Of a stretch of 64,000 nt of DNA, positions 1 to 13,294 are shown piece after piece. A program made the translations under genes and the position numbers. Position 1 is the first letter of the stretch. Every line of letters begins with the position of its first letter. The notes below the pieces were generated by a model. That model searched no databases, was not told the DNA's origin, and was given only the letters and a program-made list of their open reading frames with translations. Source of the stretch: Haloquadratum walsbyi J07HQW2 (GTDB lineage Archaea; Halobacteriota; Halobacteria; Halobacteriales; Haloferacaceae); assembly GCF_000415985.1 (NCBI RefSeq), contig NZ_KE356561.1:2973193-3037192 (forward strand), written 5' to 3'.

Positions 1-1541
1 GACTCTCCCATACTATCCAATCCATACCATACGGTTATAAACAAATACTTCGTCGCCTCTGATAATGACCCGAGCCAACCAATTCACCGTTCGCCCACGC
101 TCCGTCACAGAGCGTGAGGTGTTTGTTCAGTGGTTGGACGCTTCTGGGACTGTGACTGGGAGTCTCTGGAACGAGACAAACTACGCTCGACGCCACATCA
201 ACACTTCCTTGAAAATAAAAACGTCTGGGACGCCGACACAGGTAGTCTCGAAGGCAACTCCAAAGCCGTTCTCAGCAGTAGAGTAGTGTCGCCCAGCAAA
301 TCATTCGCAAGAACTCGAAAGCGTGGCGGTCTTTTTTCGCCAGTAATACAAAGTATCACGCTGGAAAACTCCAAGACAAACCATCACCGCCGGGATACTG
401 GACTGGGGCACCGAAGACGACGGACGAATGCAGTGCTTCGCACGTATGTCCGTACCGACCAGTACACCATTGAGTACGGGAATCGATCCCGTCTTGAAGT
501 TCCGATTGGACCCGAACTCAAAAACGAACTCGGGTTGAATCGGAATCAGCGCCTTCGTGTTGACATATCGGGATACCCGAAGTGGCGCGGCGAGCAGAGC
601 CAGCGCGAGATTGGACACGACAAAACCGCAGACATGTTCAGGGCTTTCCAACCAGTCACCAGTCACCAGTCACCATCGCCGATTCTCGACTGGACTCACC
701 GCTGGCACTGGCTTCTGAAGAAGCCGCTCTGGACGGTGGTGCGAACAACCTCATCGCTTGCACCATCTCAACCGGCACTCAATACCTCTACTCTCCGAAG
801 GACGCACCCTGTTCGAGAAATTCCGTGAAACCACCGAACGCACCGCATACTACCAGTCACTCTTCGAAAACCAGCGCGAGTCCAGCGAGCGCATCGACTG
901 CTTGTACCGCAAACGCACTATCCGACGCAATCACGCCCAAGACTGCCTTGTTCGTGACCTCGTGGAACGACTCTACGACACGACGAGGGAGTTGCGACAA
1001 TATACGGTGGTGACATCAAGTCTGTTCTCTCGACGCACTGGTCGCCCGTTGTGACCGAGAAAACACACGACTTCTGGGCGTTTCGTCGGTTCATCGACCG
1101 TCTCGAAGACGTATACGAAGAATACGGTATCACGGTCGAGAAAGAACCCGAAGCGTGGACGAGTCAAATGTGTCCCGACTGTGACTGTGACACACACGAA
1201 GAGACGATTCGTCACGAGGACTCGCTGGCGTTGGGTGCCCGTGCGGGTTTGAGGTGAGGGACATGCTGACTTGGGAGCGTCAGAGTCGTTCCTGAGACAG
1301 CAGAACACCACGGTTGGGTCGATGGCACGGTCCATGCCGTGTACCTCAACTGGGACAAACATAATTGGCGGGAAAACCATAGCCCGCCCTCGCTTATAGA
1401 GACAACGACCAACGAGGAATACACAACCCAGAATAGAGTCACGCTTCGAGCGGGAACGGGAATGTCGCTCTCGGAGTATCTCGGACCGACTGAGACTCCA
1501 ACGAGAGGAATCCCACGAGTTCAGTCGTGGGTGGATGTCAA
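1..1541 (+). mobile_element. IS1341-type (IS200/IS605) element A, decayed
   Basis: The left end lies outside the window. The body carries a ruined tnpB. The right end is a hairpin at 1512-1531 (cccacgagt / tcgtggg arms) followed by the terminal TCAA at 1538-1541. The same body and end recur in element D near 23.06-23.98 kb, which confirms that this is a repeated element. No tnpA is present, so movement would have needed a Y1 transposase in trans. The terminal TCA also forms the stop codon of the convergent regulator gene at 1538-2032. Confidence 0.85.
65..1470 (+). pseudogene. tnpB: tnpB (IS1341-type RNA-guided nuclease family), multiply frameshifted
   Basis: The N-terminus at 65 reads like a haloarchaeal TnpB (FTVRP..., then GSLWNETNYARR). 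The reading frame is then lost repeatedly. Later fragments in other frames include TYEEYGITV-like sequence and the first half of the zinc ribbon (CPDCDCDTH) near 1170-1200, and a TnpB-like C-terminal tail runs in another frame to about 1470. No single frame covers the RuvC core. TnpB proteins are guide-RNA-directed endonucleases that help IS200/IS605 elements persist; this copy cannot make one. The several antisense and overlapping open frames here are not genes. Confidence 0.85.
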
Positions 1542-2735: not shown

Positions 2736-4112
2736 TCACCGTGATATCATCTGCTCAACATGAGAGACGATGCTTTCATCAAATCGGTCGCGATTAAACC
2801 GGTCTCGTGGCAGCTGCGGACGCTCATCCGTCGTAATTGCTGTATCAATTTTATATACAGCATCTTCAAATGATTCAAATAACCGATTACTCTGTCCATC
2901 AAGCACATCGACTTGACCCCCACTAGCTGGGGCAAATGCAACCATTCCTGCAGCGACGTACTCAGCAACAGAGAGACCAAAGTGCTCTCGTGGCTTCAGA
3001 TTTAGTCCGTATTTATGTGTGCAAAGAAGTGTCTCTAATCGGCTTCGTGGAACATCTTCTTCAACGCTCACATACGATCGATTCGCTGCTTCCGTGGTAA
3101 TCGTCCTTGCATAATCACGATATGCATCAGGTGCAGTACCAACAATATGAAGATGTAAATCACGTCCATGAGCTCGGATCGCATCAACGATTGAAATCGC
3201 GTCTAACGGGCGTTTGTCCGGTGCTAATCGACCAACAACAACGACGCCATTCTCCCGTTCACCCCAAGAAGAGTCATTGTATATCGGATCCACCGGTGGA
3301 TGACAAACGACTGGGTTTATATTGTACCTGTTTGTAACGACGGAAGCCGTCCAGGTTGAATTTGTAAGAAAGGTCGTCGAAGCAGACTCTGTGGAATCCG
3401 AGACAGTTGCCTTATCATCAGGGGCAGCCAGTCGTGTCCATATCTGATTTAGATAGCCAGTATTACCAGCGTCGTCACTGTTGGGATTATCATATTCTAT
3501 ATCCTCGACGCAGTTATCCCGAATAACGTCTCCTTGTTCTCTCGTCTCGGTAAGTTGCGTTTGAGTCGTGTTCGCGATCTGATCTGCATTCTTTACTCTC
3601 AGCCCTGGAGATTCAGAGTGAGTGGATGATGATGCGATATCAACATGCTGTTGAGATTGTGAGTCAGACTCTGTTTGAATATAATCATCAACTACGGTTT
3701 TCGCATCCATGTTGGCACGAAATTGCGGATAGTGAATATACTGCACAGAGGGAAGTGGTAATGAAAATTCGTTTGCTGTGCTTACTGCAACATCATACTG
3801 ATCTGCAATCTGAAGAAAAAACTGTCTCAGTACGGCACTTCTGAACGGTAGTTGTGACCCAACAACTGGGGCAGCCCCTGCAAGTGCGCGAGCAAACAGT
3901 GTCCCTCCTGGCGGCGTCACAATATCCAACGCATCAGTGTCAAGATCAATATCGAATCGATCTGCAAGCGTTGCTGGACTCGTTACGGAGCATGTGATCA
4001 ACGAAACCGCATGAGATTCCTGTAACGCATCACAAACTGCTAGACAAACTGCATCTGCGCCGCCATGAAAGTCAAGCGTATTGTGGAGGACGGCAATCTC
4101 CGCCATACTCAT
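2736..4112 (-). CDS. Glycosyltransferase family 4 (GT-B fold) with long disordered insertion
   Basis: A 458-residue GT-B glycosyltransferase. The N-terminal domain begins AEIAVLHNTLDFHGGADAV, a typical Rossmann entry with a Gly-rich donor-side loop. The C-terminal domain starts near residue 285 with VVVVGRLAPDKRP and carries the EX7E motif in REHFGLSVAEYVAAG (about residues 390-404). Residues about 145-250 are Ser/Thr/Asp/Asn-rich and look like a disordered insert. Predicted role: transfer of a sugar from a nucleotide donor to a lipid, glycan or protein; the acceptor is unknown. Start is MSMAE at 4112 or MAE at 4106. It is divergent from the oxidoreductase fusion at 4462, with which it may form a polar-lipid or glycan module. 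Confidence 0.8.
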   Translation of the reverse strand: MSMAEIAVLHNTLDFHGGADAVCLAVCDALQESHAVSLITCSVTSPATLADRFDIDLDTDALDIVTPPGGTLFARALAGAAPVVGSQLPFRSAVLRQFFLQIADQYDVAVSTANEFSLPLPSVQYIHYPQFRANMDAKTVVDDYIQTESDSQSQQHVDIASSSTHSESPGLRVKNADQIANTTQTQLTETREQGDVIRDNCVEDIEYDNPNSDDAGNTGYLNQIWTRLAAPDDKATVSDSTESASTTFLTNSTWTASVVTNRYNINPVVCHPPVDPIYNDSSWGERENGVVVVGRLAPDKRPLDAISIVDAIRAHGRDLHLHIVGTAPDAYRDYARTITTEAANRSYVSVEEDVPRSRLETLLCTHKYGLNLKPREHFGLSVAEYVAAGMVAFAPASGGQVDVLDGQSNRLFESFEDAVYKIDTAITTDERPQLPRDRFNRDRFDESIVSHVEQMISR

Positions 4113-4461
4113 ATTTTATCCAGGATATGTATATCACTTGGTGATGCCGGATAAAAATGCATATCGCTATTTGAAGATTCACTCTCTCAATTATGTTTTT
4201 ATGTAATGATCAGATTGATACAAGAGTATAATCACAGCTCATATAATAGATAACAGATGCTTCAATTGTATTCATGAGATCAAGAAAGATATCCTATCAA
4301 AAGCACTCTCAGGCGGCTCATACTACACAAAACATCACTATATCAGCGATTATTGATAACACAGTTCTTCACATTTATGAAGATATGTCATAAATACATC
4401 TACAATTAAGAACAAATAACGTCCGCGCTCCTTTTTACCACCTCCGTCTAAATTATATTAA
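4113..4461. other. AT-rich divergent intergenic region
   Basis: This 349-base spacer lies between two divergent genes and must hold both promoters. It is strongly AT-rich with several TTTATA-like stretches; none can be chosen with confidence. No open frame, repeat or RNA fold stands out. Confidence 0.5.
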
Positions 4462-6474
4462 ATGCAGTGTGCGTTTATCGGTGCTGGTGCCGTCGTTGAG
4501 CACTATCTCGATACCCTTGATTCGACTTCTCTCGAGCTAACAGCAGTCTGTGATCACGACAGTGCCCGCGCAAGACACCTTGCAGAAGTAACTGATACGA
4601 CCGCATACACTGATGTTGAATCATTGTTGGCAGCCGAGTCAGCGCCGCTTATTGTGAATCTCACAAGTCATCAAGCACACGCAAGTATCACGCGTCAATG
4701 TCTGAACGCTAATCGACATGTATTTACTGAGAAACCACTCGCACTAGACGCTGACACTGCAGCAGCCCTTGTCGATTTAGCTAAACAACGCGGAGTTGGG
4801 CTTGATTGTGCCCCCGTCAATCATCACGGTCGTGCACAACGACATGTTGAATCACTCCTTTCTGATGATCAATTGAATCCAATCCGCGTTGTGTACGCTC
4901 ATGCCCACGTAGGTCGTGTTACAGAATGGCATGATGATCCAGGATCGTTTCTCGCCGTCGGTCCATTATATGACGGTGCTGTATATCCACTCACATTGCT
5001 TACCGCGTGGTTTGGTCCTATTGAGTCAGTTCGAGTTGCGGACACGGTCGATATCTATCCGTCACACGCCGAATCGGCACCTGAACGCCCTGCTCATATT
5101 GAGGCAACGTTGACACTTGCTGCTGGTCCAGTCATTAGACTCACAGCAAGTTTCTACACCCCACATCGGAGCCGTGAATTTAATTCGCTTGAATTGCACG
5201 GCGATGGTGGTTCAGTGTATCTCAGCGATTCCGGTGCACTGACAGCCACTCCACAAAGCGTCAGCGTCGGTGGTCACGGTCGATCATATGTTGCCTCACC
5301 ACCGGTCACATCATCACAGAATCATTCACATATTGCCGGACCAGCACGTTTTGCACAGGCAATCAAGCACGGAAATCGACCAGTGACAGGTGGTCAGCGT
5401 GGGGCACATATTGTTCGCGTTTGTAACGCAATCGAATACGCCGCTGCGAATGATGTATCTGTATCACTTTCCGTGCCAGAAACGAGACTTACCGACTCCG
5501 AGCATGATCATATCCGATCGTCACGAACACTTCAACAGGACACATACAGACCACATACTGGATCAAAACCCGCTAAACTAACCCCACAGCGACATCATAG
5601 TCACCGACTACCATCGGTTGGCTTTGGGTGCTCACGATACCGTGATGGAAATTATATCAACCGTATCGATTCTATTGCAACAGCACTTGATGCGGGTTAT
5701 CGGTTATTTGATATGGCAGAACTGTACGGTAATGAGCATCGCATTGGATCACTACTCGAGACGCCAGGGACACCCTCTCGTGAGCAACTCGTATTAATGA
5801 GTAAGGTCTGGAATACAAACCATGCACATATCGCAGAGGCTTGTGAAGGAACACTTTCAGAACTTGGTATTGACACGCTTGATTCATATCTTCTTCACTG
5901 GCCGGATGCTTGGGAGTATCAGGGACCGATATCAAAGCTCGCAACTCTACCACCAGAACAGCAAGAGCAAATAACGTTCCCGACTGACGCATCTGGTGAC
6001 CGCGCTCATGCTGATGTCTCAATTAAATCTGCATGGCAGCGGCTTGAAAAAGTCTGCAGCCGTGGACTCACACGCACAATTGGCATTTGTAATGTCTCCG
6101 CCGCACAGCTTCAGGAGATTCTTGATATTGCATCGATTCCCCCAGCAATTGTCCAAATTGAATCCCATCCTTATCGACCGCAAGCTGAACTTATTAACAA
6201 ATGCCATGACCATGGTATTCGGGTGATTGCTCACTCACCGCTATCCGCTCCCGGACTGCTCGCAGAACCGGTATTAGAAACTATTGGAGATGCGCATGAT
6301 GTCTCACCGGCGGCTATTGCAATATCATATCATGTCGATAGGGGTGTTATTCCGATTCCTGCAAGCACAACACCAGAACATATTACAGCAAATCTCGCAG
6401 CGGCGAATGTCCAACTCACCGATGAGGACCGAAATATGCTTCAGACACTTGCAGACACAGAGTTTGAGCGATGA
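4462..6474 (+). CDS. Gfo/Idh/MocA dehydrogenase fused to aldo/keto reductase
   Basis: A 670-residue two-enzyme fusion. Residues 1-340 are a Gfo/Idh/MocA NAD(P)-dependent sugar dehydrogenase: GAGAV dinucleotide loop at residue 8 and the catalytic-lysine motif TEKPLALD near residue 94. After a linker (about 345-382), residues 383-670 are an aldo/keto reductase TIM barrel starting LPSVGFGCS. Its catalytic tetrad is complete: Asp417 (FDMAELYGNE), Tyr422, Lys448 (MSKVW) and His479 (LLHWPD). Both halves act on sugar or polyol carbonyls, so one polypeptide may catalyse two redox steps on the same substrate. Its stop overlaps the start of the CDP-alcohol phosphatidyltransferase (ATGA), implying translational coupling. 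The actual substrate is unknown. Confidence 0.85.
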   Translation: MQCAFIGAGAVVEHYLDTLDSTSLELTAVCDHDSARARHLAEVTDTTAYTDVESLLAAESAPLIVNLTSHQAHASITRQCLNANRHVFTEKPLALDADTAAALVDLAKQRGVGLDCAPVNHHGRAQRHVESLLSDDQLNPIRVVYAHAHVGRVTEWHDDPGSFLAVGPLYDGAVYPLTLLTAWFGPIESVRVADTVDIYPSHAESAPERPAHIEATLTLAAGPVIRLTASFYTPHRSREFNSLELHGDGGSVYLSDSGALTATPQSVSVGGHGRSYVASPPVTSSQNHSHIAGPARFAQAIKHGNRPVTGGQRGAHIVRVCNAIEYAAANDVSVSLSVPETRLTDSEHDHIRSSRTLQQDTYRPHTGSKPAKLTPQRHHSHRLPSVGFGCSRYRDGNYINRIDSIATALDAGYRLFDMAELYGNEHRIGSLLETPGTPSREQLVLMSKVWNTNHAHIAEACEGTLSELGIDTLDSYLLHWPDAWEYQGPISKLATLPPEQQEQITFPTDASGDRAHADVSIKSAWQRLEKVCSRGLTRTIGICNVSAAQLQEILDIASIPPAIVQIESHPYRPQAELINKCHDHGIRVIAHSPLSAPGLLAEPVLETIGDAHDVSPAAIAISYHVDRGVIPIPASTTPEHITANLAAANVQLTDEDRNMLQTLADTEFER

Positions 6475-7358
6475 GAGATACGAATTTCCCTATCACTACG
6501 TCGGTTCTTTATTTAAGAAAGCCACGGGTTACCGCAACTGCTGTCGTAATTATCTCTGTTGGCGTCACGGCATGTTTTGTTGCTAGTGAACTGCAAGTCA
6601 ATCAGGTTCCAGACTCATTCGCAGCTGTATCATTAAGCTTAGATTTCGTTCGATGGATACTGCTTGCTGGAATCGTAGCTATAACTGAGCTATGGTACTG
6701 TTATCGGCATCTTGAGTCGAACCATCCGCCTACCAGTACCGGCGATAATACTCGCAACCCAGAGGCTACACATACAACAAATACTGAACATAATAACGGT
6801 GATAAGACGAGTGAAATCGAATCATATGAATTCCTTGGTCTGCCTAACGCGGTGACGGTCGCTCGGGGGGCACTTTTTGCTACATTAGCTGGGTTTGCTG
6901 GAGTTACACCTGCATACAGTATCGCGTGGCTTCCATCACTTCTGTACGGTGCAGGCAGTGCACTTGATTTTGTTGATGGATCACTTGCACGCACGGCAGA
7001 CAGGCAGACGGTTCTTGGCGCGAAACTTGACCTTGCATTCGATTCACTTGGATTTTTAATTGCGCCGGTTGTCGCCATTCTCTGGGGGCAACTCCCCGGA
7101 TGGTATTTATTACTACCAGTGACGCAGTATTTGTTTAAACTTGGTCAGAGCCATCGCCATCGTCGTGGACTCGATGTCCGACCACTTCCACCGAGTTCGG
7201 TCCGGCGGCCACTTGCCGGACTTCAAATGGCGTTCATTACGCTTGCGCTTTCCCCAGTTGTCAGTGCTCATCTCATTGAACTGCTCGCTGTTGCTGTGTT
7301 AGCACCCTCACTTATTATATTCATCCGAGATTATCTCGCTATTGCTGATTATATCTAG
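6471..7358 (+). CDS. CDP-alcohol phosphatidyltransferase family membrane protein
   Basis: A 295-residue membrane protein. The CDP-OH-P signature is exact: DFVDGSLAR, eight residues, G, three, D, three, D (about residues 165-190), which coordinates two metal ions and the CDP moiety. Hydrophobic segments occur at about 20-38, 55-75, 125-155, 195-220 and 245-285. A polar Thr/Asn-rich linker (about 80-120) separates the first two helices from the enzyme core. Family members join an alcohol phosphate, inositol, glycerol or serine to a CDP-activated lipid; in archaea the lipid is CDP-archaeol. It shares a 4-base overlap with the preceding oxidoreductase fusion, so the two probably build or attach an unusual polar-lipid headgroup. 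Confidence 0.85.
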   Translation: MRDTNFPITTSVLYLRKPRVTATAVVIISVGVTACFVASELQVNQVPDSFAAVSLSLDFVRWILLAGIVAITELWYCYRHLESNHPPTSTGDNTRNPEATHTTNTEHNNGDKTSEIESYEFLGLPNAVTVARGALFATLAGFAGVTPAYSIAWLPSLLYGAGSALDFVDGSLARTADRQTVLGAKLDLAFDSLGFLIAPVVAILWGQLPGWYLLLPVTQYLFKLGQSHRHRRGLDVRPLPPSSVRRPLAGLQMAFITLALSPVVSAHLIELLAVAVLAPSLIIFIRDYLAIADYI

Positions 7359-7586: not shown

Positions 7587-8756
7587 TTACTCTCGCCTGC
7601 GCAAATCGTATAATCGCTGAAACACATATGACGGAAACTGTGGCACAACGCGACTTGGCGGACGTCCCTTTTGTCGTTCGCCTTTTGTCTGGACGCGCTT
7701 TATGACGCCTGCTTCAGCCATCTCATAGAGAAATCGCTTGATTGTTGATTTAGATAAATCAAGTGTTGATAGCGCAGTTGTTGCCATATCCACTGACTCA
7801 CGTTCATCCGGACTGAGATTGACAAGATGTCGAAGCACCTGCTGTCGATTTGCTGGCAGTGAGAGCACAGCAGACAATGAGACGCAGGGTTCAGGTACTG
7901 ACTCGATTGCTGAGTCGATATCAGACTTACTGAGTCGGTCTTTTCCGGCAGCTGCAGCGCTGTCGACAGCAGAAAACAAAACTGCAAGCCCATTGTGTGC
8001 ATTTCCATCAGCCCAGCTCGCGACCTGTCTCGCAAGATCATGATTAAGACCTTGTCGCGCAAGCCCCACTGATGCCCGTTTCATCAAAATGTCAACAAGT
8101 ACCTGTCGCCGGTACCGACTGACACCAATTTCTGCTCCTGTGTATGCTGTCAACTGACTTTGATCAGGCGATTCTCGTCCAACAGCGAGCCAACTGACAT
8201 TACTCGGAAGGCTCGCTAAGAGGTCAATAAGAGTCAATTCATCAAGACTTCGTGACTCAGCGACATGGTCAATACAAATCGTAGCGCCAGGGGTTCCTTG
8301 CACCTGAGTGTGAACCTGATCGCGGAGACTATCTGTTCCAACGCCGTGCTTGGGCACTGACTGATCAATCAGACTGTTCAACACACTTCGATAAAACTCA
8401 AACGCGCTGGTCGCAGATCGAGCATCAACATAAACAAACGTTGGTGATGATGGCGTTTGCACGCGGGTACTCGTATGAATGATCTCTCGTGTTTCTGCTG
8501 GTAATTGTCTAAGATGAGATAGTAGCGCAGTAATGACAGCAGATTTTCCCGAGCCAACCGGTCCATGCAGATATCCATTCGGTGGAAGTCCGCCATCAAA
8601 GACCGGATCAAAATAATCAAGCAGTTGCTCCAATAGTTGTCCCCGACCGACCGGTTCATCAAGATGTGCGGCAGGCGAGAGTGCTTCATAACGCTGAATG
8701 AATTGTGGTTGTGCGTCATCATCTCGTCGTCGCCGAATTCTCGCTTTGATATCCAT
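7587..8756 (-). CDS. Orc1/Cdc6-like AAA+ ATPase with C-terminal winged helix
   Basis: A 389-residue protein counted from MDIKARIRRRRDD; the frame stays open 15 codons further upstream (8801), but that extension does not look like protein. Walker A is GPVGSGKS (about residues 65-72) and a Walker-B-like strand is ATICIDHVAES (about 158-167). The C-terminal 80 residues form a winged helix (STIKRFLYEMAEAGVIKRV). This is the layout of archaeal Orc1/Cdc6 proteins, but the Walker B strand ends in a single Asp-His and sequence conservation is modest, so it may be an Orc1-related ATPase rather than an origin initiator. No origin-like repeats flank it. Confidence 0.7.
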   Translation of the reverse strand: MDIKARIRRRRDDDAQPQFIQRYEALSPAAHLDEPVGRGQLLEQLLDYFDPVFDGGLPPNGYLHGPVGSGKSAVITALLSHLRQLPAETREIIHTSTRVQTPSSPTFVYVDARSATSAFEFYRSVLNSLIDQSVPKHGVGTDSLRDQVHTQVQGTPGATICIDHVAESRSLDELTLIDLLASLPSNVSWLAVGRESPDQSQLTAYTGAEIGVSRYRRQVLVDILMKRASVGLARQGLNHDLARQVASWADGNAHNGLAVLFSAVDSAAAAGKDRLSKSDIDSAIESVPEPCVSLSAVLSLPANRQQVLRHLVNLSPDERESVDMATTALSTLDLSKSTIKRFLYEMAEAGVIKRVQTKGERQKGRPPSRVVPQFPSYVFQRLYDLRRRE

Positions 8757-8825
8757 TGTATATTTAAGAAAGTACCACACCGACACAAGCTCAATCCGCA
8801 AATAAGAATGAAAGAAGTGGTCTTA

Positions 8826-11932: not shown

Positions 11933-13294
11933 AGAATAACAAGGAGAATGCCTGACCGTTTAACCGTCAGGATGAATCCGACACCCATAATTGATCAGAC
12001 AAACACCAACGATAGCACGGCGGAGAGAGTGGCAACACGGCTCTCGTCTCTACCGTGACACCACACAATTCTGTATCGACGGATGGGAAAACGGCGACTT
12101 CGACAAATCCGTGACCGTGACCGCGACCGTGACCACATCCAGGATTGAGAATGCGCTTTACTCGGCTCTTCAGACCCACGCTATCTGAGAAGCGAAATCT
12201 GACCACAGCGAAGATGGGGAAGGTGAATACCGAGAGAGCCAGCCGTTCGCAGTCAATAACCAGAATTGGGGAATCGACACTACCGACAACGGAACAGTCG
12301 TCGTCGTCGGCTTCCCATGCGTCTCCCAGTGGTGGTATACACCAATTGAACTGTACGACGACATCACTGCTCCTGGAGACCGACTGCTTGAAGACGATGC
12401 TGACAAGACTCGTCTCCAGCTCTACCGCCGTGGAGACGACTGGTTCTGCACGGTCAATATCGAGTACGATACCGAAGCATCAGGTGAGACACCTATCGGT
12501 GTTGATATTGGCGAACGGCACATCCTCGGTGTGACTGCCTATGATGAAGGTGAGTCGATGCTGGTGTCCGGTGAGGTGGTGAGGCGAAATACGTTCGACG
12601 CAAATATCGGTCCTTACGCGATTCGCTTTCGAAAGCGGGTGCACTTCATGCACGCAACCGCGTGGGTAATAAAGAGACCCGTCGGATTCAGGACTTGAAC
12701 CACACACTCTCTCGTCGTCTTATCACGTTCGCGGAACAGTTCGAGGATCCTGTGATGAAAGTTGAAGACCTCGAAGATATCCGGGAGAATAGCTCATGGT
12801 CAGGTGTTCATTCGTGGCAGTTTGTCCAACTCCAACAGTTCATCATGTACAAAGCCGAACGTGCTGGTATTCGTGTCGAGAAAATTGATCCGTTCAATAC
12901 CAGCCAACAGTGTTCAGCATGTGGTTCGATGGGAACCCGTGATGGAGATCAGTTTTCATGTTCGGAGTGTGGGCGAGAACGCCATTCTGATTTGAATGCT
13001 TCAGAGAACATTGCACAACGAGAGGGAGAACCATGCACGGGCTAACGCTTCGGGCGAGTCGAACCGTGTACCTCGCTGGTTGAACAACCAGCCGTTTTTG
13101 ACGCCCGCTGTATGTGGGGTGGAAGGCTCCTGTGACAGAGCTACACGCGATGGAACGCACGTCCTTGGTCACAACTGGACGGTGACTGTTGAGGGGTCAC
13201 GCGAAAGCGTATCTGAACCCCAAGCCCGAGGAAACGCGCAACCTGAATATCCACTTCGTGGATTCCCGCGTCTTTAGGCGCGGGAGGATGTCAA
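11933..13294 (+). mobile_element. IS1341-type (IS200/IS605) element B
   Basis: The left end follows the target TTAC at 11929-11932 and starts agaataac, with a subterminal hairpin (cctgac / gtcagg) at 11951-11971. The right end has a strong hairpin (cccgcg / cgcggg) at 13265-13284 and finishes in TCAA at 13291-13294. It carries tnpB only. Both ends are intact, so it could still be mobilised by a Y1 transposase in trans. Confidence 0.85.
11991..13045 (+). pseudogene. tnpB: tnpB of element B, one nonsense and one frameshift
   Basis: The protein can be followed almost continuously from 11991 to 13045. It breaks at an in-frame TGA at 12186-12188 (HAI-stop-EAKSD, where relatives have Arg, so CGA to TGA) and at a frameshift near 12575 (after MLVSG; the correct frame resumes with [11 protein letters not shown]). 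The nuclease core is otherwise preserved: first Asp in GVDIGERH, Glu in KVEDLEDIR, zinc ribbon CSAC...CSEC, and last Asp in [11 protein letters not shown]. The first residues do not align well with a normal TnpB start, so the N-terminus may also be damaged. This looks like a recently inactivated gene. Confidence 0.85.

Follow-up and report, generated by a model that had tools for sequence, protein, structure and literature searches.

A dehydrogenase-reductase fusion and an accompanying CDP-alcohol transferase of Haloquadratum as a possible haloarchaeal layer of a biosynthetic system shared with Bacteria

In Haloquadratum walsbyi J07HQW2, the gene for a Gfo/Idh/MocA dehydrogenase fused to an aldo/keto reductase (AKR) overlaps the gene for a membrane CDP-alcohol phosphatidyltransferase. 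This pair is real and well conserved, and the pathway around it is larger than first proposed and common to Bacteria. The reading preferred here, to which we assign a probability of about 0.5, is that fusion and transferase are the outermost, haloarchaeal part of a biosynthetic system that spans both domains and has a GTP-derived branch, because bacterial plasmids share the gene set and their transferases score at the level of the same subfamily. The product is probably an unusual membrane-attached compound and not a simple sugar lipid. Each enzyme comes from a known superfamily, but archaea and bacteria share a conserved combination of a GTP cyclohydrolase, a 6-pyruvoyltetrahydropterin synthase (PTPS) homologue, a dehydrogenase, a glycosyltransferase, a methyltransferase and a membrane CDP-alcohol transferase, which apparently constitutes an uncharacterised pathway. 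It raises the testable question of which compound is anchored in the membranes of such organisms, and why an extra CDP-alcohol transferase persists in ~60% of the haloarchaeal genomes that were searched.

The window, i.e., the whole stretch of DNA analysed, comprises 64,000 nucleotides (G000:C1:2973193-3037192) of a 3.59 Mb genome assembled as a single contig. The two open reading frames and their stop-start overlap (Table 1) are as the first-pass annotation described them, and the divergent glycosyltransferase that it placed next to the fusion is indeed there, outside the quoted span of 4462-7358. This glycosyltransferase contains a Glycos_transf_1 domain (E 1.4e-9, Pfam) and gave no match as a query against PDB sequences. 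Its GT4 homologues are found in haloarchaea either divergently beside the fusion or within an operon with dehydrogenase, PTPS and methyltransferase genes, and also occur in bacteria. The intergenic region presumably carries the promoters of both divergent genes.

Table 1. Features of the fusion-transferase locus in window coordinates, and the core operon of the same genome
Feature	Position	Strand	Size and basis
GT4-family glycosyltransferase, divergent	2736..4112	-	458 aa; PF00534/PF13692
Intergenic region, GT4 to fusion	4113..4461	.	349 bp; position only
Gfo/Idh/MocA dehydrogenase + aldo/keto reductase fusion	4462..6474	+	670 aa; Pfam
Domains of the fusion	Gfo half, residues 1 to ~335; linker, ~340-380; AKR half, ~381-665		
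ATGA stop-start overlap (fusion TGA / transferase ATG)	6471..6474	+	direct sequence
CDP-alcohol phosphatidyltransferase, fusion-associated 'DxAxDT/S' variant	6471..7358	+	295 aa; PF01066, complete motif
Operon of GTP cyclohydrolase III, zinc dehydrogenase, PTPS homologue and methyltransferase	L102:6316-10260 = G000:C1 ~890.3-894.3 kb		

Both halves of the fusion retain the hallmarks of their superfamilies. The N-terminal half matches GFO_IDH_MocA (PF01408) at residues 2-112 (E 5.8e-22), with the C-terminal Gfo domains (PF22725, PF02894) reaching to ~335, and has the Rossmann GxG, the (E/Q)KP lysine and the C-terminal acid/base pair, while the other half matches Aldo_ket_red at residues 387-663 (E 2.3e-47) and joins the barrel to the Asp-Tyr-Lys-His tetrad. 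Residues G7, G9, K91, P92, D171 and Y175 of the Gfo half and the tetrad D417/Y422/K448/H479 of the AKR half are invariant in an alignment of 55 fusions, which bears out the earlier statement that the catalytic residues of both are intact. A structure search with the AlphaFold model, which is of moderate confidence (pLDDT 69.6) and of low confidence in the linker, matched the AKR half to aldehyde reductase (E 2.1e-24) and mannose-6-phosphate reductase. The Lys-Asp-Tyr set is likewise kept in aldose-aldose and glucose-fructose oxidoreductases and the tetrad in aldose-6-phosphate reductases of the AKR type, but here both activities reside in one chain, an architecture confined to haloarchaea in the collections searched. 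No full fusion was seen outside the order to which these haloarchaea belong in a phylum sample of 247 genomes, and a plasmid search returned it from haloarchaeal plasmids only. Since full-length open homologues exist in ~100 genomes, down to ~45-50% identity, a frame artefact is ruled out as its source. The closest named relative found is that of H. walsbyi J07HQW1 (81% identical). Shortened fusions with a reduced AKR half and a retained transferase occur in Haloarcula pelagica (~450 aa, L091:9396-10745) and H. halophila (~580 aa, L101:5055-6794), and a broken remnant precedes an intact transferase in one further genome (G110, L079, ~7637-8032).

The transferase belongs to the CDP-alcohol phosphatidyltransferase family: a CDP-OH_P_transf domain spans residues 124-274 (E 3.5e-12, Pfam), and the motif DxxDGxxARx8GxxxDxxxD is complete at residues 166-191 within a helical membrane domain, its positions being conserved in 76-77 of 78 aligned proteins. 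The helical AlphaFold model (pLDDT 73.1) finds its best structural match in PgsA (7drj/7drk, probability 1.00), and with this predicted PgsA-like fold, headgroup transfer by the enzyme is plausible. Motif and fold are common to PgsA and the archaeal AisA/AssA, but the transferase is of a different subfamily, falls below the curated cut-offs and is an additional gene. It was found in 224 of 391 Halobacteria genomes and went undetected in ~40%, whereas the synthase of archaetidylglycerophosphate (AGP) for the common lipid PGP-Me is expected in essentially all haloarchaea. Among 69 genomes compared, all 43 with the transferase have three to four CDP-alcohol transferases, and 24 of the 26 without it have exactly two. 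The transferase is an extra copy on top of a near-universal pair, and, being undetected in so many genomes, cannot be what a lipid universal in haloarchaea depends on.

The coupling between fusion and transferase is one-sided. The fusion is present in 108 of the 391 Halobacteria genomes, 107 of which also have the transferase; in the sole exception (G241) only the AKR half is matched, and weakly. The first-pass annotation had asked whether the two always co-occur and would have been contradicted by fusions found mostly without the transferase. That pattern is absent, yet the reverse dependence fails, with 117 genomes containing the transferase and no fusion. The transferase gene follows the fusion gene, in the same orientation, in most of the loci sampled; the two overlap or lie ~0.5-0.6 kb apart, and in several loci the gap holds a gene for a small DUF7475-type membrane protein.

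A residue switch accompanies this partnership. Of the 23 fusion-less sequences in a tree of the transferase, 18 group into a single clade (support 0.999), and the remaining five, from loci with a lost or broken fusion, fall inside the fusion clade. Next to the last two catalytic aspartates, all 57 members of the fusion clade read D-x-[AGT]-x-D-[TS]; members of the fusion-less clade mostly carry E and A/G at these positions, and all six bacterial transferases have E and A ('DMExDA' or 'DMESDA'). Because the fusion-associated variant carries an altered residue pair next to its catalytic aspartates, the fusion probably tailors the substrate of this transferase. The switch is what would be expected if the fusion alters the substrate and is the best support for the coupling originally suggested, but could also mark the lineage without any functional effect.

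The partnership is embedded in a larger gene set. In ~50 haloarchaeal loci, mapped by tblastn with the core proteins (mechanical picking of open reading frames had given the antisense artefact clusters c8, c12, c14 and c16), the neighbours that recur are genes for a zinc dehydrogenase (BchC-like), a homologue of PTPS/QueD, a glycosyltransferase of family GT4 and a protein resembling SAM methyltransferases, often with GTP cyclohydrolase III. In 19 loci the genes for fusion and transferase stand together with those for dehydrogenase, PTPS, GT4 and methyltransferase, a grouping that annotated Haloarcula plasmids display clearly. Across 382 genomes (taken as G000-G381, with 12 weak, paralogue-level dehydrogenase matches excluded), transferase and dehydrogenase co-occur with a phi of 0.90 (both, 213; transferase alone, 7; dehydrogenase alone, 12; neither, 150); phi and counts are quoted here because Fisher p-values ignore shared ancestry. 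The PTPS partner reaches 45.8 bits against QueD (cut-off 89.25) and 27 bits against 6PTHBS (cut-off 125.5), and is classed from these scores as a homologue only, not as a 6-pyruvoyl- or 6-carboxytetrahydropterin synthase. The claim of a closed path, in which two redox steps are followed by transfer to CDP-archaeol, is not borne out in that form, as the transferase follows a larger dehydrogenase/PTPS/GT4/methyltransferase operon with GTP cyclohydrolase. What holds of the proposed lipid-headgroup path is the tie between fusion and transferase and the PgsA-like fold; most of the pathway genes had been omitted from it.

Three layers can be distinguished in this system. The dehydrogenase, PTPS homologue, GT4 and methyltransferase-like protein are the core; a common neighbour of it is GTP cyclohydrolase III in haloarchaea, and in bacteria GTP cyclohydrolase II and/or a reductase of the RibD type. 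As a second layer comes the membrane transferase, which co-occurs with the core, and the haloarchaea-specific fusion, essentially never present without the transferase, is the third. The dependence thus looks nested, with the fusion within the transferase and the transferase within the core.

The same set occurs in bacteria. With an Arthrobacter homologue as bait, plasmids combining the dehydrogenase-PTPS-GT4-methyltransferase genes with a CDP-alcohol transferase were located in Streptomyces, Microbacterium, Peteryoungia, Thiodictyon, Rhizobium and Agrobacterium, and these clusters carry GTP cyclohydrolase II and/or a RibD-type reductase. The bacterial proteins are picked up by profiles made from their haloarchaeal counterparts; the transferase profile gives 73-107 bits for bacterial cluster members, compared to 27.0 and 11.9 bits for two CDP-alcohol paralogues of the Haloquadratum genome (the score of the third is unreported). 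By the joint presence of this transferase subfamily and the core in one genome, the H. walsbyi transferase is a member of the cluster, its own core operon being listed in Table 1. The Streptomyces plasmid cluster has the same dehydrogenase-PTPS-GT4-methyltransferase order as the haloarchaeal set, together with a related transferase, a creatininase and GTP cyclohydrolase II. Unlike in haloarchaea, the bacterial clusters with a transferase contain GTP cyclohydrolase II/RibD and no Gfo/AKR fusion. A Nonomuraea match was rejected as a cluster, consisting of dehydrogenase paralogues only. The best solved relative of the PTPS partner is SCO6650 of Streptomyces coelicolor (3d7j). The related chromosomal cluster of S. 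coelicolor includes SCO6655, which we take to be a cyclohydrolase that stops at the formylaminopyrimidine, presumably the same product as that of archaeal cyclohydrolase III; if this is true, two unrelated enzymes feed one compound into the same gene set.

Several bacterial clusters have further neighbours. Cytochrome b561 lies beside the RibD-type reductase in four of them (L120:10219-11582, L121:10528-12142, L123:10189-11565 and L125:10165-11544) and adjoins the transferase in Dinoroseobacter (L126) and Alloyangia (L127), which hints at a redox role. In Alphaproteobacteria, sulfatase/LTA-synthase-like proteins and lysylphosphatidylglycerol-synthase transmembrane (flippase-like) proteins are encoded near the transferase (L126:8821-12097, L127:8998-12304, L120:1472-4122), in Rhodobacterales along with an ABC transporter.

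Part of the set recalls the archaeal riboflavin route. ArfA of that route is GTP cyclohydrolase III, which is often inside the haloarchaeal operon, and a creatininase-family gene is found beside the operon in Haloarcula marismortui and Streptomyces; GTP cyclohydrolase III yields a formylaminopyrimidine that is deformylated by ArfB or, in Sinorhizobium, by the creatininase-like BrbF (PMC9478397). Riboflavin synthesis, however, involves neither PTPS nor GT4, methyltransferase or CDP-alcohol transferase. In the mechanism that we propose, GTP would be opened to a ribosyl- or ribitylamino-pyrimidine, which would then be processed by the PTPS homologue and the dehydrogenase, glycosylated and methylated. 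The fusion would oxidise and then reduce a sugar or polyol, using Lys-Asp-Tyr in the Gfo half and Asp-Tyr-Lys-His in the AKR half, perhaps with the cofactor recycled inside the protein. The transferase would displace CMP from CDP-archaeol and couple an alcohol or alcohol phosphate, which could come from either branch, to the membrane lipid, and the PAP2-type and sulfatase-like proteins encoded in some loci could afterwards strip a phosphate, as in PG synthesis.

A GTP-derived branch also meets objections. As Haloferax requires cyclohydrolase III for riboflavin anyway (PMC8305020), its presence in the operon may be a mere shared supply. Some haloarchaea and bacteria have the core and lack the transferase (core genes with no transferase nearby occur in Methylosinus, Palleronia and a strain of Rhodobacteraceae), so that the transferase does not necessarily act on the product of the core. 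Against the preferred reading also stands the division of the system over separate loci in Haloquadratum and Halobellus; in the genome studied here, the core operon is ~2.1 Mb from the fusion and the glycosyltransferase has remained beside the fusion. The open literature searched contained no functional study of the cluster, of SCO6650/SCO6655 or of HVO_1281-1284, no biochemical work on these proteins and no paper assigning a product to the cluster. A bolder and rather unlikely extension is that haloarchaea and bacteria make a widespread and undescribed type of cofactor or headgroup, derived from GTP (ribitylaminopyrimidine- or pterin-like), bearing sugar and methyl groups and anchored in the membrane, of which fusion-bearing haloarchaea would produce a variant with a different sugar or polyol; such compounds are possibly redox-active, since bacterial clusters contain cytochrome b561.

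The path proposed by the first-pass annotation, in which the transferase places a novel polyol or sugar phosphate from the fusion on CDP-archaeol, is possible but unlikely when taken as independent of the GTP-linked genes. It draws on the near-absolute dependence of the fusion on the transferase, the overlapping genes, the complete active sites and the variant residues of the fusion clade; the AKR half, moreover, resembles mannose-6-phosphate and aldose-6-phosphate reductases, and alcohol phosphates are known acceptors for the PgsA fold. These points are offset by the many transferase genomes devoid of a fusion, by the tight link of the transferase to the dehydrogenase/PTPS operon, by the five sampled fusion-clade loci that kept the transferase when the fusion was lost or broken, and by the fusion-less bacterial homologues.

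A general role of the transferase in archaeal phospholipid synthesis, as an archaetidylglycerophosphate or archaetidylinositol phosphate synthase with incidental neighbours, is improbable. Its best NCBIfam matches are to these families but are weak, at 26.7 bits for the archaetidylinositol phosphate synthase equivalog NF040950 (cut-off 180) and 22.3 bits for the pgsA/AGP synthase equivalog TIGR00560 (cut-off 109.1), and the patchy distribution of this extra copy argues against such a role in spite of PgsA being the closest fold. By counting alone, the transferase may be the counterpart of Haloferax HVO_1136 (pgsA1), which has merely distant partial matches to characterised proteins and a function that was left open (Pfeiffer and Dyall-Smith, PMC8305020); if so, the finding may bear on that function. 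Less probable again is a fusion acting in sugar catabolism or detoxification by aldose-aldose dismutation and merely co-transcribed with the transferase. The Gfo half does weakly match aldose-aldose oxidoreductase and sugar dehydrogenases, and the AKR half general aldehyde reductases, but a transferase accompanies the fusion in every genome apart from G241, and the mapped loci have no conserved sugar transporter or kinase beside the fusion.

Downstream of the transferase, the window encodes an Orc1/Cdc6-like AAA ATPase (7587-8801, minus strand), and H. walsbyi J07HQW1 retains the same downstream trio of this ATPase, a 372-aa membrane protein and a 510-aa protein. Further along, an open reading frame at 12662-13045 (plus strand) ends in a CxxC...CxxC zinc finger like the C-terminus of a TnpB/OrfB transposase and is apparently a fragment.
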